Of a stretch of 33,792 bases of DNA, positions 5,131-33,792 are shown piece after piece. A program made the translations under genes and the position numbers. The first letter of the stretch is position 1. Every line of letters starts with the position of its first letter. The notes under the pieces are model-generated. The model was not told the origin of the DNA, ran no database searches, and saw only the letters and a program-made list of their open reading frames with translations. Where the stretch lies: positions 1-33,792 of IMG/VR virus record IMGVR_UViG_3300005095_000458. One strand, given 5' to 3'. This DNA is from a virus.

Positions 5131-5884
5131 ATCCGTTTAACTTCTTGACCGAGCGAAAGCATGTAAACAAAAGTGTTTAACTATTTTGGCTTTGTTAAGC
5201 TTTGGTTTTTGACGACTGCCCAAATTGGAAAATTCCCAAGCAATCGGAAAAAACATAATCAGGGGGTGGGTTTGCCCGTCTATCGACGAAAAATTTGTTG
5301 CCCATATAGGCCCGGCGCAACCTCCGAATGCAGAAGTTGGGCAATTCAGAGTGAAATTTTGGGCACGAATGGGAAGAAATGAATATACTTGTGCATCGAA
5401 ACGGCCACGAGAGGGCTTATTTGGTGCACAAAAACGGACGTTGGGCAATTTTTCCCCGTTTTTTGCCAATAAATCCCACTTAGTTGGACACCGACCCCCC
5501 TTTAGTTGGACAACAACCCCCCCGAAGTTGGGTAACGAATTTTCGGACCTTTTTCCATAGGTCATGGTAAACCATCACTCGGAGGTGTGATTAGCAACCC
5601 CCGTGTTTGGGGGGCGCTTTCGAAAAAATGTATACATTTTTCCCGATGAACACTTTTGTGCTTGCCCAACATGTGTCCAACTAAAGGAGGGTTGTTGTCC
5701 AACTAAAGGGGGGTCGTTACCGCTAAACGGGGGGGTCGTTACCGCTAAACGCCCTCCAATTACCCAACTTTCGGTTAGCCTAATGGGTATTTTCGACTAC
5801 CGTCGAGAATAATGCACAGAAATGCTCACCGGTGATAACGAGTTCCAACAAAAGGCCAAGCGTTCGTCGAGAAAAGGTGTAAAA
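5131..5884. other. Repeat-rich noncoding block, candidate replication origin
   Basis: No credible gene lies in these 750 bases; small frames on both strands are interrupted by repeats. The decamer TAGTTGGACA occurs at 5481 and 5503, with the variant AAGTTGGGTA at 5525, all 22 bp apart. Inverted copies lie at 5674-5683 and 5696-5705, again 22 bp apart. A perfect 28-bp inverted repeat has arms at 5492-5519 and 5689-5716. TCGTTACCGCTAAAC is repeated at 5714 and 5736, and its GGTAACGA half recurs at 5531. TTGGGCAATT occurs at 5337 and 5441. Near the middle are a C5/G6 hairpin (5598-5614) and an 18-bp AT palindrome (5624-5641). Helically phased iterons between replication genes are the mark of a plasmid or virus origin. 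Confidence 0.65.
5492..5716. repeat. 28-bp perfect inverted repeat flanking a central hairpin
   Basis: The arms are 5492-5519 and 5689-5716, with C-tracts on one side and G-tracts on the other. The centre (about 5604) coincides with the CCCCC-GTGTTT-GGGGGG hairpin. The outer ends extend the symmetry: TAGTTGGACAC at 5481-5491 faces GTGTCCAACTA at 5673-5683. Confidence 0.85.
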
Positions 5885-11683: not shown

Positions 11684-12157
11684 TCATGAGCTTCCCATGT
11701 TGTCGAGCCACCTTGCGTACTCGACCGCCGTCCCGGCCACGACCGAGGCGCCGTATATCAGGGCAGGAAACACTGTCGGGCTGTACGGTAGTGTCGAGAC
11801 GCCGTTCACCGCCGCCGCGAGCAGATAGATGGCCGAGCCGAATATCAGCCCGATGACGTTTCCATAGATGAAGCCCTTTATGATGCGGAACAGGACGCTC
11901 TGGCCCTTCTTCTCCTCAAGCCAGTGGCTGTACTCGACGGCGGTTCCGGCGGTAACACTGGCGCCGAATATTAGGGCCGGCCACAAGTCGGGGTTGAAGG
12001 ACAGTGTCGAGATGCTGTTCACTGCCTTCGCAAGCATGTAAATGCTGGTGCCGAATATCAGGCCTATCACCGCCCCATAGAGGAACCCCTTAAACAACCT
12101 AAACAGCAGGCGTCCTTTCTCGGGCGCGGTCTGGGTCGCGTTTGGCTCATCAACCAT
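11684..12157 (-). CDS. Four-TM membrane protein with internal duplication, 157 aa
   Basis: After a polar 15-residue start the protein consists of two similar halves. The first has LFRLFKGFLYGAVIGLIFG and ALIFGASVTAGTAVEYSHWL; the second has LFRIIKGFIYGNVIGLIFG and ALIYGASVVAGTAVEYARWL. Each half has two hydrophobic segments rich in Gly and Ala, so four membrane helices are expected with both ends on the same side. A recent tandem duplication of a two-TM unit explains this. It is the last gene of the structural operon, so a virion membrane component or lysis-related protein is possible. I do not recognise a named family. Confidence 0.75.
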   Translation of the reverse strand: MVDEPNATQTAPEKGRLLFRLFKGFLYGAVIGLIFGTSIYMLAKAVNSISTLSFNPDLWPALIFGASVTAGTAVEYSHWLEEKKGQSVLFRIIKGFIYGNVIGLIFGSAIYLLAAAVNGVSTLPYSPTVFPALIYGASVVAGTAVEYARWLDNMGSS

Positions 12158-22579: not shown

Positions 22580-24700
22580 TCACCTCCGCGAGAACTCCTC
22601 AACCATCTTCGAGATGAACTTTTCGTAGCCGATGCGCCACGGCTCGGGCAAGTCGGCCTCGCTCCCGCCAACCGTCTTCAACGCCTCCACAATGGCGGAC
22701 ATCATCAGGTAGTAAAGGCCCGGCTCACAGGTGTAGCCCGGCTCCTTCTTCCGCACCACCTTGACCTTGTGGTAGTCCTCGGCGCTGTAGCAGACCTTGT
22801 AGTCGGTGGCGAACTTGAGGGCGAACCCGCACTCCCTCGCCGAGCAAGTCTTGAGTAGGTATTTGACCCAGCCGGCGGCCCGCTTGTAGAGTGCATCCAT
22901 ACCGCCCTCGACGAGGACGCCGCCGTAGTTCTCAAGGAGGTAGAGCGCCAAACCCTCGCGGAGGTTCCGCCTCTTCGCTTCGAGGCGCTTGATGGTCTTG
23001 TAGATGACGTTCTCGGCAAGCCACTTGGCGAGGAAGTCGGCGTAGGCCTCCGCGCCGGGGAACTGCTCCGCCTTCCCCCTGAGGTGGCGCTCGACGCCAT
23101 AGAAGAGCATCTCGCCGACCTCCTTCGGGTTGCTCAGGGCGTCCTTGAGCCACTCCGGGATTTTGCCCGTGTACTCCCAAACGTACTCGGGGAACGTCTC
23201 CCTACGCTCCACAATCTCGGAGGCCGTCTTCGCCTCCACCTTCTTCCTTTCCTTCGACAGCTCCCTCGGTGGGGCCGCCCCTATGGAGACCCTACGCTCG
23301 TAGAGCGTCTTTGCGAGCCTGCGGGCAACTTGCAGGGCTTGGAGGTAAGTCATGCGCCCGTCCTCGACGGCCTCGGCGAGCTTCTCAAGGTCGGGCACAA
23401 GCTCATCCACAATCTCGTTTAGGATTATACCGTTCTTGATGGCCCACCGGTCGAGGTCGGCGTAGAGGCGCTCGAAGACTTCCCCCCTTGCGCCGGCCTC
23501 CTCTTCGGGCGTAAGTTCCTTGACTTCTTCCCGCTTGACCCCGAGCTTCCTCAGGGCGCGCTCCTTCTTCGCCTCCGCCAAATCCCACTCCGCCACGCGG
23601 AGGATTTCCGCCATCGCCTTCACTTGCTTGAGCCGGCCCTCGTAGACCTCCCTCGCGAGGCGGTCTATCAGCTCCATCGGGGGCCTGATTTCGTCCTCCT
23701 TGAAGCCGTGCAGAAGGAACTTGCCGACGTAGGCGTCGCGGAGCTTCTGCCGGATGAAGCGGAGGCCTTCCTCCTCTGGCGGGACTTCCATCTCCGCCAC
23801 TTCCTCAAGTGGCATCTCGGTCTTCTCACCGTGCACCTCGACCGGAACTTCAATCCCTTCGAGCGAGCTTTCTTCGGCTTCCTCTTTGCGCTCCGGCTTC
23901 TTGGTCCTGCGCTCCCGTTTGGTGGGCGGCTTCGAGAACTCCTCCGGCTTGACGCCGCTCCAATTCAACGTCGCCAAGAGGACGACGCCGTAGGCAATCC
24001 GCCTCGGATAGCGGTAGAACGACCTCGGGAGCATGTGGGCGCCAAGCTCATCGTAGAGCATGAGCGAGCAGACACCGTCGGAGTAGCACGTTAGGAGCGC
24101 CATGCCTTCCTTGCCGTCCTTCTTGAGCACGATTTCGGTCGTGTCTTTGGAGCGCTTCTTCACCTTCACGTCGAAGCCAAGCCTCTTAAGGGCGCGCTCA
24201 AACTCCTTTATGCTCTTCGGTGAGTTCTCCTCAAGCCAGGCGATAACCTTCCGGCCCTCTTCGGCGGCCTTCTCGGCCTCCTCGAAAAGCTCGTTGGTGC
24301 ACGGAAGGCCGAGGGTGTGCGCTTTCTCCACAATCTCAACGAGTGGGCGCTCGTGAACCTCGCCCGTCCACTCCGAGGTCGGCAACAAAGTTCCTTCCCA
24401 CGCGCTCTTGGCCAAAAACTCAATCTCTTTTTTGTAGTGTTGGCAAAGGACCTTTTCCCTCCCGCCGAGAACCTGCCACCCCTTCTCGGTCGGCGAGAGG
24501 TAGGTCATCTCGCCCCTTACGGTTTTCTCCTTCCGGGCCGTTAGGTAGCCTTCCTTGATGAGCTTCTCCACGAGCGCCCGCGCTTCCTCTTTCGGTAGCT
24601 TGTGCTTGTAGTGCAAGAACGACGACACGGTTTCGAGCGTGTTAAGCGCCCCGGTCGCAACGAGTTGGAGCGCCTCCTTCTCCAAATCTGTGAGCGCCAC
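22580..24700 (-). CDS. Large protein with N-terminal MarR-like winged helix, 706 aa
   Basis: The GTG at 24700 follows GGGAGGTGGT; a longer frame overlaps the promoter and the divergent gene. Residues 1-85 form a winged helix (LTDLEKEALQLVATGALNTL; ARALVEKLIKEGYLTARKEK). A charged linker (about 270-320, PPTKRERRTKKPERKEEAEE) separates it from a long helical region and a C-terminal domain with cysteines (KTCSAREC, KVCYSAEDY, YTCEPGLYY). No ATPase or nuclease motif is visible. It is the largest gene after none other in the window, and the first of the operon leading to the structural promoter. Confidence 0.75.
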   Translation of the reverse strand: MALTDLEKEALQLVATGALNTLETVSSFLHYKHKLPKEEARALVEKLIKEGYLTARKEKTVRGEMTYLSPTEKGWQVLGGREKVLCQHYKKEIEFLAKSAWEGTLLPTSEWTGEVHERPLVEIVEKAHTLGLPCTNELFEEAEKAAEEGRKVIAWLEENSPKSIKEFERALKRLGFDVKVKKRSKDTTEIVLKKDGKEGMALLTCYSDGVCSLMLYDELGAHMLPRSFYRYPRRIAYGVVLLATLNWSGVKPEEFSKPPTKRERRTKKPERKEEAEESSLEGIEVPVEVHGEKTEMPLEEVAEMEVPPEEEGLRFIRQKLRDAYVGKFLLHGFKEDEIRPPMELIDRLAREVYEGRLKQVKAMAEILRVAEWDLAEAKKERALRKLGVKREEVKELTPEEEAGARGEVFERLYADLDRWAIKNGIILNEIVDELVPDLEKLAEAVEDGRMTYLQALQVARRLAKTLYERRVSIGAAPPRELSKERKKVEAKTASEIVERRETFPEYVWEYTGKIPEWLKDALSNPKEVGEMLFYGVERHLRGKAEQFPGAEAYADFLAKWLAENVIYKTIKRLEAKRRNLREGLALYLLENYGGVLVEGGMDALYKRAAGWVKYLLKTCSARECGFALKFATDYKVCYSAEDYHKVKVVRKKEPGYTCEPGLYYLMMSAIVEALKTVGGSEADLPEPWRIGYEKFISKMVEEFSRR

Positions 24701-24814
24701 AACACCACCTCCCGACCGCATTCTCTTGGTTGACATTTCGCACCGAAAATATTTACCTTTTTCGCCGGCGAAAGGTTTTTCGGGAGTTCGGCGCAAGTGC
24801 CTTTGGTGGTCGCC
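24701..24814. promoter_or_regulatory. Divergent promoter region between 24700 and 24815 genes
   Basis: On the minus strand GCGAAAAAGGTAAATATTTT (TATA about 24745-24756) is well placed for the GTG at 24700. The plus-strand gene at 24815 must start within the same stretch; CGCCGGCG (about 24769-24776) is a central palindrome next to CGAAAGG. A shared, mutually exclusive promoter is likely. Confidence 0.5.
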
Positions 24815-25114
24815 ATGCCGTCCCACAAATTTCACCGCGCTTTGAACCGGCTCGTGCTCGGGGACGACTACGAGCTTGTGAACCTCATCAAGGACGCCCC
24901 ATACCGCCTCTACCCCGGCAAGAAGCACCGCGAATACTTCCACGACAGAACCACGAACCTCATTCTCGGCTTGATTTTCGGGCCGAAGGGCTTCGTTGCG
25001 GGTGAGCTTCACGACTGGCTGGATAGGGAGTTCATCGAGGACAGAGAAACCGGCAAGTTGATGCTCCGGAGCGAGTGGGTGAAAAAGAAAAGGAGCCGGC
25101 GCTCACGACGGTGA
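24815..25114 (+). CDS. Small His-rich protein, possible metal binding, 99 aa
   Basis: The ATG at 24815 follows GGTGGTCGCC. Histidines are placed as MPSHKFHRAL, KKHREYFHD and GELHDWLD, a pattern reminiscent of YdjM/DUF457-type metal-dependent hydrolases (HR..HS and SH..LD), but the protein has only one weakly hydrophobic segment (NLILGLIFGPKGFVAGEL) and lacks the family's TM helices. The tail is basic (KKKRSRRSRR). It overlaps the end of the convergent gene by 12 bases. It is one of only four plus-strand genes. Confidence 0.65.
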   Translation: MPSHKFHRALNRLVLGDDYELVNLIKDAPYRLYPGKKHREYFHDRTTNLILGLIFGPKGFVAGELHDWLDREFIEDRETGKLMLRSEWVKKKRSRRSRR

Positions 25115-25432: not shown

Positions 25433-25775
25433 CCGCTTTCACCTCCTCGCGGCGCTTCTGGATGAGCGAGAAGAAGGCTTTGGCGTCCTCGACCACGTGG
25501 GGGTTGTAGCTGTCCCAATCGCAGAGGTGTCCAAGCCGGAAGTGGCACGCCCGGCAGAGCGGGATTAGGTTGCTCTCGTCGAAGATTTTGTCGGGCGCGA
25601 TGTGGCGCGGAATGATGTGGTGAAGCTCCACGTGCCTCTTTTCGCCGCAGGCGTGGCAGTATTTCTCGTCCGGGTGCCGCTCCCAATATTTCCGCTCGAA
25701 CTCCTCCCATTGCTCCTTTATCGCCTCGTAGTGCTCCGGGTGCTTTTTTTGGTGGAGCTTATAGCTCTTCACCAT
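25419..25775 (-). CDS. HNH endonuclease, 118 aa
   Basis: The ATG at 25775 is spaced correctly from GGAGGG. The motif runs YCHAC (Cys 40 and 43), ELHHIIP (His 52-53), SNLIPLC (Asn 69, Cys 74) and RACHFR (Cys 77, His 78), the full metal-stapled beta-beta-alpha HNH fold with catalytic His. Such enzymes cut DNA with a divalent metal. In phages they often sit next to packaging genes; here the neighbours are membrane proteins and no terminase is seen. It could also act in defence against rivals or genome processing. Confidence 0.9.
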   Translation of the reverse strand: MVKSYKLHQKKHPEHYEAIKEQWEEFERKYWERHPDEKYCHACGEKRHVELHHIIPRHIAPDKIFDESNLIPLCRACHFRLGHLCDWDSYNPHVVEDAKAFFSLIQKRREEVKADGGS

Positions 25776-26115
25776 CGCCATCCCTCCAGAACTCATCAAG
25801 GCCGGGAACGTCGTCCTCGAAGAGCGCCTTCACGGCCTGCTCCTTCGCCTTCTTCATAAGCTCCTTGAACTCCTCGCTCTCAATCTTTGCCTTGATGTAT
25901 TCGTTGAAGTAGCGCTCGCTGGTCTTCTTGAGCCAGTCAACCGCGAGGCCCCTAAGCTCCTCGTCGCTCAGGAGCTTTCTTAGCCACCGCTCCGTCCGGC
26001 GGTAGGCTATCTCCGTCCCGATTATGGTTCCGAGCGTCGCTCCCAAGAGGACGCCGAGAAGCATCGTCAGTAGGCTCTTCGGGTCCAGTCCATACGCCCA
26101 TGACGGCGGAAGCAC
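25759..26115 (-). CDS. Membrane-anchored coiled-coil protein, 118 aa
   Basis: The GTG at 26115 is placed after GGAGGTGGTC. One TM helix (LLTMLLGVLLGATLGTIIGT) is followed by a long charged helix (WLRKLLSDEELRGLAVDWLK; YIKAKIESEEFKELMKKAKE). The product overlaps the adjacent small membrane gene in another frame by about 50 bases. Function unknown. Confidence 0.65.
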   Translation of the reverse strand: MLPPSWAYGLDPKSLLTMLLGVLLGATLGTIIGTEIAYRRTERWLRKLLSDEELRGLAVDWLKKTSERYFNEYIKAKIESEEFKELMKKAKEQAVKALFEDDVPGLDEFWRDGDGEEL

Positions 26116-26210
26116 TTCGACCACCTCCTAACGTCCCAATACGCCTTCAGGAAGCCGATACCAACCGCAATGAGGCAGAGGCCGACGACAACTTGGGCGT
26201 TCAGCTCCAT
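26067..26210 (-). CDS. Single-TM small protein, 47 aa
   Basis: The ATG at 26210 follows GGAGGCGGACAG. A hydrophobic helix (LNAQVVVGLCLIAVGIGFLK) is followed by a basic tail (YWDVRRWSKCFRRHGRMDWT). It overlaps both neighbours in other frames, an arrangement of dense small membrane genes seen from 25759 to 26448. Confidence 0.5.
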   Translation of the reverse strand: MELNAQVVVGLCLIAVGIGFLKAYWDVRRWSKCFRRHGRMDWTRRAY

Positions 26211-26299
26211 CTGTCCGCCTCCTTTGCGGCCTTCCAGTTTGCCCAAATCCACGCGCCGACCACTATGAAGGCCAGCGCCTCGATGATTAGCCACCTCAC
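26201..26299 (-). CDS. Single-TM micropeptide, 32 aa
   Basis: The GTG at 26299 overlaps the stop of the gene upstream (GTGA), and the TGA at 26201-26203 overlaps the next start region. The product MRWLIIEALAFIVVGAWIWA continues NWKAAKEADRWS: one TM helix and a short polar end. Coupling on both sides supports it; the size makes it uncertain. Confidence 0.45.
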   Translation of the reverse strand: MRWLIIEALAFIVVGAWIWANWKAAKEADRWS

Positions 26300-26448
26300 T
26301 CTTCCACCGCCTCGTCAAGCTCTATGAGTGCGTAGTCTATCTGCTCAAGCGCCGTCAGCTCGTCGCCGACCTTGAGGCTCTGCCGGGCCTTGTTGAGGCG
26401 CTTCTTTATCTTCTTCAGCAAGGCGTGCGTGTTAACTCTTCTTCCCAC
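26296..26448 (-). CDS. Small helical protein, 50 aa
   Basis: The GTG at 26448 follows GGGGTGGGAGA. The product begins MGRRVNTHALLKKIKKRLNK and continues ARQSLKVGDELTALEQIDYA with an acidic end, a helical hairpin without TM. It overlaps the end of the caspase-like gene and is coupled to the micropeptide downstream. Confidence 0.55.
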   Translation of the reverse strand: MGRRVNTHALLKKIKKRLNKARQSLKVGDELTALEQIDYALIELDEAVEE

Positions 26449-27217
26449 TCTCCCACCCCCCGATTAGGAGGAGGCCGAGTGGGAGGAGTATCAACCCGGC
26501 GCTCGTCGTTTGGACGGGTCTCTGCATCGGTAGGCTCAGCTTGAAGGCCTTTCTCGGGCCGGGCTTTGTTACCGTCGCCGTCTCGTCGCCATAGAGCTTT
26601 GAAATCATTTTGTCGGCCAAGATAATCCTCGCGTTGAGCGCGGCCGCGTCGAGCTTTGAACCCTCGCCGGTGGTGAAGTAGTTGAGCCACCGCTCGTAGG
26701 CATTCATCCTTGCGCTCTGAGCCTCGCCGGCCGTCATGCCGGAGAGCATCGCCGCATCGGTGGTGAACTCGGCCATAAACGGAGCGGCCGTAACGATGTC
26801 AATCTTGCCGGTCTTCGGCATGAGGAACAGAAACTCATTGTCGTGGGCGAAGACGGCCCACGCGCCCTTTTGAACCATCACTTGGGCGAGCTGGCGGCCG
26901 CACCAACAACTGTGCACGTGCCAGACGCGGCCCTTCACGATGTCGAGGTTGAGTTCTTGTGAGCAGTAGGCGCTCATCTGCGGCTCGTTGAGGCTGATGA
27001 ACGGCTCCTTGTTTTGGAGCGTTGTAACGCAGGGCAACCCGTGTCCTGTCGTGAAGACGTAGGGATAGTCCGTCTCCAGAACGAGCTTCCGGGCATTTTC
27101 CGGCGTCGCCTCGTCGCCCCAGAGGATTACCGGCTTCTCGTCAATCTGTGGGGCGATGGCCTTCATGATTGCGCTCGGAACGTCAACGCCGAAGGTCGTC
27201 GGCAAGAAGTAGAGCAC
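26432..27217 (-). CDS. Candidate membrane-anchored caspase-like (clan CD) cysteine peptidase, 261 aa
   Basis: The GTG at 27217 follows GGGGGATGAGCG. The pattern YVFTTGHG (His 59) and, 45 residues on, VWHVHSCWCGRQLAQVMVQK (Cys 104, with 106 as alternative), then GAWAVFAHD, matches the His and Cys strands of caspase-like enzymes such as gingipain, metacaspase and CHAT proteins (HG, then C..G followed by a helix and GA..V). The N-terminal strand (EKPVILWGDEATPENARKLV) fits the first beta-alpha unit. A C-terminal TM (SAGLILLPLGLLLIGGW) would anchor it. It may process virion or host surface proteins. No signal peptide is present. Confidence 0.55.
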   Translation of the reverse strand: MLYFLPTTFGVDVPSAIMKAIAPQIDEKPVILWGDEATPENARKLVLETDYPYVFTTGHGLPCVTTLQNKEPFISLNEPQMSAYCSQELNLDIVKGRVWHVHSCWCGRQLAQVMVQKGAWAVFAHDNEFLFLMPKTGKIDIVTAAPFMAEFTTDAAMLSGMTAGEAQSARMNAYERWLNYFTTGEGSKLDAAALNARIILADKMISKLYGDETATVTKPGPRKAFKLSLPMQRPVQTTSAGLILLPLGLLLIGGWESGKKS

Positions 27218-27220
27218 CGC

Positions 27221-27514
27221 TCATCCCCCCATTTCCCTGAGCATCAGCTCGACCTCGCTGAGGAGGAACTGGGCCAGAACGGGGTTCCAATGGCCGCGCC
27301 TGACCATCTGGACAAGCTCCTTCGTCGAGTAAACGACGCCGTTGGAGCTTGTTATGTAGCCGTGCGGGTCGCTTTCGAGCGCCCGGATTACCCTCGACAC
27401 GACGGCTTGGTATAGCGTCGGGTAGTTGCTCAAGAGCCGTATTGCGTCGGCAAAGTCGCCCTGAAGGAGATACTCCTTTACTTGTCTGAGCACAACGACC
27501 GAGCTGTTCGCCAT
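27221..27514 (-). CDS. Helical hypothetical protein, 97 aa
   Basis: The ATG at 27514 follows GGGGGGTGATTGAG. A helical protein (VVLRQVKEYLLQGDFADAIR; LYQAVVSRVIRALESDPHGY; STKELVQMVRRGHWNPVLAQ) ending in Glu/Leu-rich LSEVELMLREMGG. It resembles its upstream neighbour in ending with a section NPxLxxxxxAxx/Sxx-like (NPVLAQFLLSEVELML against NPALKLLAQADILLAK), so the two may be old paralogues. Confidence 0.65.
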   Translation of the reverse strand: MANSSVVVLRQVKEYLLQGDFADAIRLLSNYPTLYQAVVSRVIRALESDPHGYITSSNGVVYSTKELVQMVRRGHWNPVLAQFLLSEVELMLREMGG

Positions 27515-27515
27515 C

Positions 27516-27920
27516 TCAATCACCCCCCGCGAGCTTCTTCCCAAGCTCAAGATACTTTTTCGCCAAAAGGATGTCCGCCTGAGCGAGGAGCTTTAAGGCC
27601 GGGTTTGTTAGGCCCTCCCTCGCCACAATCTCGGCGAGTTGGTCGGTCGGCATAGCGTAGCCTGTGAGGGTTGCGAGTTCGTAGCCCTTAGCCCGCTTTA
27701 GCAAAAGCTCAAGCCTCGCCCTCGCGAGGGCCTGAAGGTCCGTGCCAAAGCGCCCTTGCTCTACCAACTGTTGGAGCTTTTCGCCGACGCTCGTTCCCTT
27801 CTCAACCTCGCGGAGCGCTTGCAATGGCGTGTAGAAGACGTGGCCGACGTGGAGCATCGGCAAACTCCTTTCCACCGGCGGTAAAGAGGCGACCCATTTC
27901 CGCATCAACTCAAGGCTCAT
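27516..27920 (-). CDS. Helical hypothetical protein, 134 aa
   Basis: The ATG at 27920 follows GAGGTGGTGCGG. It is helical throughout (TPLQALREVEKGTSVGEKLQ; LQALARARLELLLKRAKGYE; TDQLAEIVAREGLTNPALKL) and ends with LLAQADILLAKKYLELGKKL. The C-terminal pattern recalls the next gene. It is the first gene after the AT-rich promoter at 27931-27960. Confidence 0.65.
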   Translation of the reverse strand: MSLELMRKWVASLPPVERSLPMLHVGHVFYTPLQALREVEKGTSVGEKLQQLVEQGRFGTDLQALARARLELLLKRAKGYELATLTGYAMPTDQLAEIVAREGLTNPALKLLAQADILLAKKYLELGKKLAGGD

Positions 27921-27930
27921 CCGCACCACC

Positions 27931-27960
27931 TCATCGTATAATATAAATAAGGAAATATTT
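27931..27960 (-). promoter_or_regulatory. AT-rich promoter for the 27920-25103 operon
   Basis: Minus strand AAATATTTCCTTATTTATAT, continuing TATACGATGA, contains two possible TATA cores (AAATATTT, TTATTTATAT). It lies between the end of one gene and the ATG at 27920, and gives a very short leader. Confidence 0.5.
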
Positions 27961-28279
27961 AAGGCTTCACCATGCCGAGCATCACGGCAAGTTGGTAGGC
28001 CTTCGACGTTATGTCCTTGATGAGCGGCCTATACTCGGGCTTCCAAATCCAGAGCCACTCGAAGACACCGCGTGGGCTGACGAGCCACTCGACGAACTTC
28101 TGAGCGCCGGTCAATGGGTCCTTCTCGACCTTCTCAAGTAGGGCATCTAAGACGGCCTTCACGAGCCTGTCCCTCTGCTCGTCGCTGAGCTTGTCCCACT
28201 TCGCCTTGTATTCCTCGAACTCCGCCCACCACTTGCGGTTCAACTCGTCGAGGAACTCTTGCTCGCTTTTGAATTGCAC
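27959..28279 (-). CDS. Helical hypothetical protein, 106 aa
   Basis: I choose the GTG at 28279, which follows directly on the upstream stop; a longer reading overlaps that gene and lacks a ribosome binding site. The product is helical and aromatic-rich (FLDELNRKWWAEFEEYKAKW; QRDRLVKAVLDALLEKVEKD; GVFEWLWIWKPEYRPLIKDI). It contains no known motif and ends MLGMVKP. Confidence 0.6.
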   Translation of the reverse strand: MQFKSEQEFLDELNRKWWAEFEEYKAKWDKLSDEQRDRLVKAVLDALLEKVEKDPLTGAQKFVEWLVSPRGVFEWLWIWKPEYRPLIKDITSKAYQLAVMLGMVKP

Positions 28280-28280
28280 T

Positions 28281-28478
28281 TCAGAGGGCGAGGAGCTTCT
28301 CAACGAGTTCGGCATACTCCTTGAACTCTGGTCGAACCGCATCTTCGAACGCCTCCTTTACGATTTCTTTCTTCCCCCTAAGCTTCTTCGCAACGGCAGG
28401 GAGCGAGGCCGGGTTTTCGAGGGCCTTTGTGAGGAGGGTATCGACCCACTTGAGAACCGCTCTCGTTTTATCAGGCAC
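28281..28478 (-). CDS. Small helical basic protein, 65 aa
   Basis: The GTG at 28478 follows GGAGGTGGTGAGG. The product begins with VPDKTRAVLKWVDTLLTKAL, then ENPASLPAVAKKLRGKKEIV and EFKEYAELVEKLLAL. It overlaps the upstream coiled-coil gene by eight bases and shows no known motif. Confidence 0.6.
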   Translation of the reverse strand: MPDKTRAVLKWVDTLLTKALENPASLPAVAKKLRGKKEIVKEAFEDAVRPEFKEYAELVEKLLAL

Positions 28479-29622
28479 CCTCACCACCTCCGGCCTCGCC
28501 CTCGCTCAGGAACTCGTCAATGTCGGGGAGGTCTTCCACCTTCGGCGGCTCCGGGGCGGGCATGTTCCCCGTCGCAACGGCCCCGGCCTGGTCATAGACG
28601 GCCGGCGCCGGCCCTCTGCGGAAAATCCCCGTGATTGCGTTGAGGAGTATCTGGAGGTTCTGCGGGTTGCTCAAGAGGTTTGCGAAGGCGTCCGCTATCT
28701 TCTCCATGAAGGCCCGCTTCGCCTCTGCCTCCTTGTGCTTCATCTCAAGCTCCTTCAGTTTGAGCTGAAGCTCGAAGGCCTTGAAGGGGTCCTCCTTGTC
28801 CGGCTTCTCGACCTTGAAGCCCAAGCTTTCGAGCGCTTCGGTCATGCGCTTGAGCTTCTCGGAGAACTCGGCCATCTCCTCAAGCGGGTCCTTCTTTGCG
28901 TTGGCCTCAACGGGTTGGCTTTGGGTGGCGTCGGCTATCATTTGGAGACGCTGGTCGAGGTAGTCAATGAGGTCGGCGAGGACCTCCCTGAGCGCCTGCC
29001 CCTCATCCTGCTTCTTCTCAAGAAGGAGCTTATAGAGAAGCTCCTCCTTCTTCTCCTTCTCCGCCTTCATGTCCTTAATCATTTCGAGGATTAGGGCCTT
29101 CAGAACGTCGTTGAAGTCGCCGCTCGGCTTCTTCTCGTCCTCCTCGAACATCTTCTTGATGAGCTTGAGCTTCATGGCCTGCTTCTGAACCTCCGCGAAC
29201 TCGCGCACAATGTCGTCGTCTCTGCTTACGCCGGCCTGAGCGATGAGGCTCTGCAAAAGCAAGGGTGCTAACGGGTTCTTTGACTGCGCAAGCGCCGGCA
29301 CGACACCGAGCGTGGCCTTCTTGAGCTGGAACTCTTGGTCTTGCTTCTTTTCGAGGAGCTTCATGACCATTTGGAGCGTCATCTCGGCCTCAACGTCGTC
29401 CATGCCGTAGCGCTCTTTTATCCGCTCCTTGATGGCCTCGTCGTCAAGGCCGGCCATCTTGCCCTGCAGAACGTCGGTCAGGACTTGGTTGTTTACGTCG
29501 GGCTTTGGCTCGGGCGCTTCGGCCTCTTTCGGCTTGGTCGCTTCTTCGAGGAAGTCTCCGATGTCGGGGAGGGCTTCCTCAGTTTCGGGCTTTTCAACCT
29601 CCAAAACGGCCTGTTCACTCAA
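28471..29622 (-). CDS. Long coiled-coil protein with matching LPDI-FL end motifs, 383 aa
   Basis: A TTG at 29622 sits where ATG sits in similar sites (GGGAGGTGGTGCGG before it). The centre (about 60-320) is charged coiled coil (MKLKLIKKMFEEDEKKPSGD; EMIKDMKAEKEKKEELLYKL; FELQLKLKELEMKHKEAEAK), and the ends are disordered and acidic. LPDIGDFL (18-25) and LPDIDEFL (365-372) repeat the same short motif at both ends. This suggests two copies of a linear docking site on a scaffold, perhaps for capsid assembly or replisome tethering. Confidence 0.65.
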   Translation of the reverse strand: MSEQAVLEVEKPETEEALPDIGDFLEEATKPKEAEAPEPKPDVNNQVLTDVLQGKMAGLDDEAIKERIKERYGMDDVEAEMTLQMVMKLLEKKQDQEFQLKKATLGVVPALAQSKNPLAPLLLQSLIAQAGVSRDDDIVREFAEVQKQAMKLKLIKKMFEEDEKKPSGDFNDVLKALILEMIKDMKAEKEKKEELLYKLLLEKKQDEGQALREVLADLIDYLDQRLQMIADATQSQPVEANAKKDPLEEMAEFSEKLKRMTEALESLGFKVEKPDKEDPFKAFELQLKLKELEMKHKEAEAKRAFMEKIADAFANLLSNPQNLQILLNAITGIFRRGPAPAVYDQAGAVATGNMPAPEPPKVEDLPDIDEFLSEGEAGGGEGA

Positions 29623-30697
29623 CCGCACCACCTCCCTGCTCAGCGGTCAAAACGCCCCACTCTTGTAGGGCTTCCTTCATAAACACATACGTGGCGAGCT
29701 TTTCCAACTGCTTCTTGTTTAGGAGGCCGATTAAAAACCTCAAGGCCTCTTCATACTCCTTGAGCGTGTCGGCGAGCATATCGGCGGTCGCTTGAAGGAC
29801 ACGGACACGCCTCCTCAAAAGCATGTTCTCCTGCCACGTCTTCATCAGAGCATCGGGGTCGGTAACTCTGAGCACGGCGTCGAGCTGATGGCGGATATAC
29901 TCGTAGAGCGCATTCGGGTCCTCGATGAGCTTTTCTGAGTAGCGCACGATGTCGTCCCTCGTAACGACGCCGAGCTGAAGTAGGCTGAATATCAAAAGCT
30001 CCCCGAGACGGGCGTAAACCTCGCGCTCGACCGCGTAGCGGTGAAAGGTCTGGCCAAGCACTTCGGCGACAGTCTTGTCAATCTCCTTGAACGTCGTTGT
30101 GTTGGCGCTCTTCGTGTAGAGCGCGGAGGTGATTTTCTCTTCCTTCCCGCCATCGTTGGGGTTCTTTCTCGGGCGCCCGCGTTTCTTTGGCGGTTCGGGC
30201 AGTTCCTCGACCGGCTCAGGCTCGATTTCGGCTTTCGGCTCGGGCATCGGCTCGGCCTCCTTTTTCTCCGCCTTCTCCTCTTCCTCTTTCTTCCCCAGAC
30301 TCGCCTGGTAGCGGTCCCATGAGCGCAAAATCGAGTAGATGCGGCGCTTTACGTCGGAAGGCGAGATGTGGAGCTTGTGAGCAATCCTTTTGACGTTGTT
30401 GAACTTCTGAGCGAGGTTGTAAATCTGCTTGTGGGTGTCGGTGAAGGGCTTGTTGTTGCCGAGCCGGCCGGTTTCCATAAACCAGCCCGGCACTTTACGT
30501 AGTTCAAGGATGAGTTCATCAACCTCGCCCTGTTCGTCCGCTTCGTCGTCAAGCTCGCCCTGTAGCCCGTTGGCGTCATCGGGGAGAAGTCCAACCTCCT
30601 GAAGGAGCTTGAGGAACTCATCTTCCTCGCTCGGTTCCTGCTCGCTGGCGTTTTCCTCGCCTTGCACCTTGTCGTTTGTAAAATCGCCGTCGGCCAA
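29615..30697 (-). CDS. DNA-binding protein with HTH and AT-hook-like motif, 360 aa
   Basis: A TTG at 30697 follows GGGGGTGAGAGCC and opens the operon. The first 65 residues are acidic and disordered. Residues about 93-127 (NLAQKFNNVKRIAHKLHISP, then SDVKRRIYSILRSW) form a helix-turn-helix like those of resolvases or small terminases. A Glu/Pro/Lys linker carries an AT-hook-like KKRGRPRKNP (171-180). The last 150 residues are helical (LQATADMLADTLKEYEEALR). DNA recognition is likely; a packaging or partition adaptor is possible. Confidence 0.7.
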   Translation of the reverse strand: MADGDFTNDKVQGEENASEQEPSEEDEFLKLLQEVGLLPDDANGLQGELDDEADEQGEVDELILELRKVPGWFMETGRLGNNKPFTDTHKQIYNLAQKFNNVKRIAHKLHISPSDVKRRIYSILRSWDRYQASLGKKEEEEKAEKKEAEPMPEPKAEIEPEPVEELPEPPKKRGRPRKNPNDGGKEEKITSALYTKSANTTTFKEIDKTVAEVLGQTFHRYAVEREVYARLGELLIFSLLQLGVVTRDDIVRYSEKLIEDPNALYEYIRHQLDAVLRVTDPDALMKTWQENMLLRRRVRVLQATADMLADTLKEYEEALRFLIGLLNKKQLEKLATYVFMKEALQEWGVLTAEQGGGAVE

Positions 30698-33692: not shown

Positions 33693-33792
33693 CACGCTCC
33701 CATCTGGTGGATATAGAATTCTTGTGGAACACTCCCAAACAACCTCCGAAACGCTTTCTTTGCAACTTCTTGAGCCTCGTAGGGGTTGCTTG
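33692..33792 (-). CDS. Junction-crossing hypothetical protein (3' part and repeated overlap)
   Basis: This is the C-terminal part of the gene described at 1-169. Bases 33712-33792 repeat 1-81, so only 33692-33711 is new sequence, encoding the end HQMGA and the stop. It is not a second gene copy. Confidence 0.7.
   Translation of the reverse strand, partial: SNPYEAQEVAKKAFRRLFGSVPQEFYIHQMGA
33712..33792. repeat. 81-bp direct terminal repeat, right copy
   Basis: Identical to 1-81; see the left copy. It marks the closure of the circle. Confidence 0.9.

Follow-up and report, generated by a model that had tools for sequence, protein, structure and literature searches.

The Candidate Peptidase and Its Gene

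The window (the whole stretch of viral DNA analysed here, 33,792 nucleotides) carries on its minus strand a gene whose product is best read as a candidate member of a new, very divergent family of clan CD-like, tail-anchored cysteine peptidases. Three members of this family were found: the window protein and one homologue in each of two other viral genomes, G001 and vir519. The complete proposal, in which the enzyme would be tethered to a membrane and encoded by a host-directed accessory gene, is given about an even chance of being right, as judged from comparisons of sequence. The features on which it depends are as follows.

26432..27217, minus strand: candidate clan CD-like tail-anchored cysteine peptidase CDS (syntenic homologue 73% identical; dN/dS ~0.23)
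27038..27046, minus strand: GHG, residues 58-60, with His59 as the proposed catalytic histidine (invariant in 3/3 members)
26897..26911, minus strand: SCWCG, residues 103-107, with Cys104 as the proposed nucleophile and Cys106 not conserved (translation, three-way alignment)
26840..26866, minus strand: GAWAVFAHD at residues 118-126, putative strand following the Cys helix (translation, three-way alignment)
26720..26740, minus strand: GMTAGEA at residues 160-166, the second stretch that is conserved (GMTxGxA in 3/3 members)
26453..26500, minus strand: hydrophobic segment of the C-terminus, residues 240-255, putative membrane anchor (hydropathy; present in both relatives)
27221..27550, minus strand: small predicted helical protein of 109 aa, directly upstream of the peptidase candidate (G001 neighbour 51% identical)
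25759..30697, minus strand: gene block containing the peptidase-candidate CDS, order kept in G001 (homologues at L006, 11513-16295)

The first-pass annotation had proposed this reading frame without giving a strand; the frame is confirmed and is now assigned to the minus strand, where it encodes 261 aa from a GTG start with the stop included, the plus strand across the same positions being interrupted by stops. Upstream of the GTG lies GGGGGGATGAG. Compared with its syntenic G001 homologue, the CDS differs at 56/40/107 first, second and third codon positions, with dN 0.22 and dS 0.95, and it is a genuine coding gene under purifying selection. The 109-aa protein encoded upstream is a possible partner of the peptidase candidate; its identification as a TPR partner was dropped, as the match (E 0.059) was below the cut-off and came from one homologue only.

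Relatives and Viral Context

The closest relative is encoded by G001 (IMGVR_UViG_3300026488_000006, 39,192 bp), within a block of the same gene order whose orientation is reversed with respect to the remaining genome. The other, vir519_00054 (DBA34719.1), is 27% identical at E 3e-4, being the sole match among 50,697 phage records, and an HMM built from the window and G001 proteins reaches it at E 4e-11 among the vir519 ORFs. It belongs to a head-tailed virus of Methanofastidiosa (BK063666, Caudoviricetes sp.) and is annotated only as a hypothetical protein; it shares with the window protein the motifs and a C-terminal transmembrane segment, but lacks Cys106 and has a segment of different length ahead of the Cys strand. 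Among viral contigs, protein, alignment and DNA-pattern searches returned the G001 relative only, and the neighbouring genes used as bait led to the same contig. No relative was seen in GTDB genome contigs or plasmids by scans that need fairly close matches and may miss distant relatives, and PDB sequence searches gave chance-level matches only.

Bases 1-81 of the window recur exactly at 33712-33792. From this 81-bp direct repeat at its two ends, the window is most likely circular and complete, with a genome length of 33,711 bp. Archaeal-type TATA/promoter sequences (CGAAAGGTTTATATA) occur near 631, 31593 and 31953; together with the relative in a Methanofastidiosa virus, they agree with the archaeal virus context assumed by the first-pass annotation, which is considered likely from these sequence features. 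A cluster of inverted and tandem 22-bp repeats of the GTCCAACTAAAGGGGGGTCG type at 5454-5751 is possibly a replication origin. The product of the minus-strand gene at 11684-12157 consists of two hydrophobic hairpins that resemble each other. It matches phrog_22428 (function unknown) at 5e-19 and has a weak match to an Acidianus rod-shaped virus 3 protein; it may be a membrane or capsid protein of the hairpin type. The minus-strand gene at 22580-25012 encodes 810 aa, while its G001 counterpart (L006:3722-8761) encodes 1,679 aa and is homologous at both ends.

Terminase, portal and HK97 head genes are present in vir519; among the window proteins scanned, neither a packaging gene nor an HK97 gene could be recognised, and a UvrD-like helicase is the sole plausible Walker-A ATPase. 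The peptidase candidate is the only gene that the window and vir519 share at E 1e-3, while G001 and vir519 share the candidate, a dpdA gene (40% identical, 2e-39; Pfam DpdA match ~1e-20) and perhaps a small zinc-ribbon protein. No dpdA homologue was seen in the window. The two dpdA genes are located as follows.

L006:17321-18271: DpdA-like DNA-modification gene of G001, within ~2 kb of the peptidase gene
L003:17850-18743: DpdA-like DNA-modification gene of vir519, within ~2 kb of the peptidase gene

Motifs and Proposed Active Site

Clan CD peptidases are ordered as a strand ending in His-Gly, a strand ending in a small residue and Cys-x2-Gly, a helix and a Gly-Ala strand. In the window protein, the hydrophobic strand leading to His-Gly is present as YVFTTGHG, and the second hydrophobic strand, followed by the predicted helix and strand, as VWHVHSCWCG...GAWAVFAHD. 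The motifs listed by the first-pass annotation, TTGHG with His59, HSCWCG with Cys104 and Cys106, and GAWAVFAHD, are thus found at their places in the 261-aa translation. GHG, SCxxG, LAQ, GA..VFA and GMTxGxA are invariant in the three-way alignment, across 27% identity. Cys104 and Cys106 had both been put forward as nucleophiles; Cys106 is a valine in the vir519 homologue, so that Cys104, invariant, is the only one of the two that could be a shared nucleophile. The proposed catalytic dyad would therefore consist of His59 and Cys104.

A loose pattern, HG-x(20,60)-[SAGD]C-x2-G-x(7,15)-G[AV], was found in 3 of the 646 ORF fragments from the loci scanned (101,443 residues), and a strict pattern also in three, which are the family members. 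Among shuffled sequences, the loose pattern appears in 3/20,000 derived from the window protein and 5/20,000 derived from the vir519 protein, and the strict pattern in none; as both patterns were composed after the sequence was seen, these counts are descriptive and constitute no test. Subject to that caveat, the motif set exceeds chance expectation.

Comparison with Peptidase Families and Structure Prediction

The first-pass annotation had suggested C25, C14, C11 and CHAT as the families for comparison. No Pfam, NCBIfam or PADLOC family matches the window protein, and its matches to PHROG profiles are at chance level. Relative to the Pfam gathering scores (PF01364, 23 bits; CHAT PF12770, 24; C14 PF00656, 21.4; C11 PF03415, 25.8), the Peptidase_C25 model gives no match for the window and G001 proteins and 15.0 bits, below 23, for the vir519 homologue (E 0.015-0.016), over residues 65-147, spanning the GHG and SC motifs. 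When Peptidase_C25 is searched as a single family against the vir519 genome, the match lies on the vir519_00054 ORF alone (E 2.3e-4). The CHAT, C14 and C11 models find nothing in the three genomes, while control genomes give matches.

For hhalign, the targets were CHAT and C14 proteins from cyanobacterial and Azospirillum plasmids, the C14 set including one phage metacaspase; the C14 proteins were fetched with a yeast metacaspase bait, the evidence being its database matches only. Against the CHAT proteins, the best path extends over 132 columns and aligns both catalytic residues, with a score that is not significant: 97/150 column-shuffled profiles reach that score, and 0/150 align at least 130 columns. 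Scores against C14 and CHAT fall within the range of the shuffled controls, in a comparison of low power, where even C14 against CHAT, two bona fide families of the clan, did not succeed (10.8% probability). Two AlphaFold models from two-sequence alignments, of the full length and of residues 1-212, were unusable (pLDDT 37.6 and 40.5). Their order of elements, a strand at 54-56 before His59, a helix at 105-116 after Cys104 and a strand at 121-125, fits the expected one but has little weight at pLDDT 38-41, and Foldseek found nothing with either model, a result that is meaningless at that confidence.

Taken together, the motif, profile and hhalign results support a clan CD likeness of the family but not its membership of a named one, so that the window protein is placed in no named peptidase family. 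What stands of the original clan CD assignment is the order of the motifs, their conservation in vir519 and the weak C25 match of that homologue; for the window protein itself, no clan CD model gives a match.

Predicted Membrane Tail and Topology

The most hydrophobic 19-mer of the window protein lies at its C-terminal end, with a mean Kyte-Doolittle value of 1.74, and the 19-mers at the same place in the two relatives reach 1.81 and 2.32. The membrane anchor of the first-pass annotation is hence retained as a prediction, the hydrophobic tail being present in all three members. There is no obvious signal peptide at the N-terminus, which leads directly into the presumed first strand; for this reason a cytoplasmic, tail-anchored enzyme is favoured, and cutting of the S-layer from outside, one of the functions suggested at first, appears less likely. 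The tail of the vir519 protein has an acidic, proline-rich stalk before the hydrophobic segment and basic residues after it, charges that, by the positive-inside rule, would favour the opposite side of the membrane for that protein.

Possible Role and Alternative Explanations

In the proposed mechanism, the product would be a divergent cysteine peptidase resembling those of clan CD (the caspase/gingipain superfamily); lacking an apparent signal peptide, it would be held at a membrane by its C-terminal tail. Its gene would be an accessory one, common to otherwise unrelated archaeal viruses. The most likely substrate belongs to the host and is located at the membrane or close to it, where its cleavage would serve counter-defence, takeover or exit; a virion substrate is less likely. 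The dpdA gene directs 7-deazaguanine modification of DNA, which guards against restriction. Since the candidate is common to structurally different viruses and, in two of the three genomes, is close to this protection gene, a host-directed accessory role is suggested over virion maturation. The broader claim, that archaeal viruses carry a membrane-tethered caspase-like peptidase exchanged between unrelated lineages and used against a host membrane or defence protein, or for triggering host cell death or exit, is tentative and rather doubtful.

A clan CD-type peptidase could also be anchored where virions form, trimming virion or scaffold proteins, as the window and G001 genes lie within the block of conserved order alongside several uncharacterised helical and membrane proteins, and as the conservation of the protein (76% over the matched part) is comparable to that of core proteins. 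However, the HK97 head genes of vir519 have no recognised counterpart among the window proteins scanned, making a shared virion substrate unlikely, and the vir519 homologue is located far from the head genes, beyond the large late genes; this role in assembly is regarded as improbable. The same fold without active peptidase, serving for binding or as a scaffold, is the least probable explanation. The protein is remote in sequence from every known peptidase family and its activity is a prediction, but a degenerate active site would not be expected to keep both His59 and Cys104 invariant at 27% identity.

It is likewise improbable that the family lies outside clan CD, as an alpha/beta protein without relation to it that conserves GHG and SCxxG for another reason. 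Such a protein would agree with the lack of a significant profile match for the window protein, the unusable AlphaFold models and the weak profile-profile scores. Nevertheless, the region over which the vir519 homologue matches C25, below threshold, covers exactly the two motifs, and the loss in vir519 of Cys63 and Cys85, as well as Cys106, fits poorly with a metal site or a conserved disulphide. The reading as a divergent, membrane-tethered clan CD-like peptidase directed at the host is thus the one retained.

Relation to Known Caspase-like Systems

Prokaryotic caspase-like proteases are known mainly as host proteins, some of them antiviral, such as TPR-CHAT in Craspase. If the proposal is true, the family would mirror, on the viral side, the CHAT and caspase-like proteases with which hosts fight viruses. 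Its presence, anchored in the membrane, in viruses unrelated to each other would imply a hitherto unknown target in the membrane of the archaeal host, and whether viruses take over archaea by proteolysis would become directly testable. A clan CD peptidase of an archaeal virus was not found in the literature searches, whose limited coverage makes this weak evidence, and to this extent the earlier remark that none had been described holds, while metacaspases of giant viruses, medusavirus and Heterosigma akashiwo virus (HaV01), are known (PMC6450098). For the medusavirus enzyme, manipulation of host cell death has been proposed (PMC6450098). The main text of a 2026 survey of Thermococcales viruses mentions no caspases, proteases or peptidases (PMC12934983). 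In addition, a C14 metacaspase is encoded at 346159-346599 of LR745208.1 (L021), an unannotated 485-kb uncultured phage, as the sole match among the 50,697 phage records to the yeast metacaspase bait. Clan CD genes in viruses are rare but already known.

These virus metacaspases are, as proposed for the candidate family, clan CD peptidase homologues carried by a virus; they can be recognised as members of C14, from eukaryotic viruses or, in one case, a large phage, whereas the candidates match no C14 model and have a hydrophobic C-terminal tail. CHAT proteins have the same succession of His-Gly, Cys-x2-Gly and Gly-Ala, and the best hhalign path pairs the catalytic residues; yet they are host proteins, and the viral candidate has no match to their model, no significant hhalign score and no fused TPR region. 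Peptidase C25 has the order GHG, small residue-Cys-x2-Gly and subsequent GA strand in common with the family, and it is there that the vir519 homologue gives its sub-threshold match; in contrast to C25, the family described here falls below the cut-off, is much shorter, ends in a hydrophobic tail and is borne by viruses.
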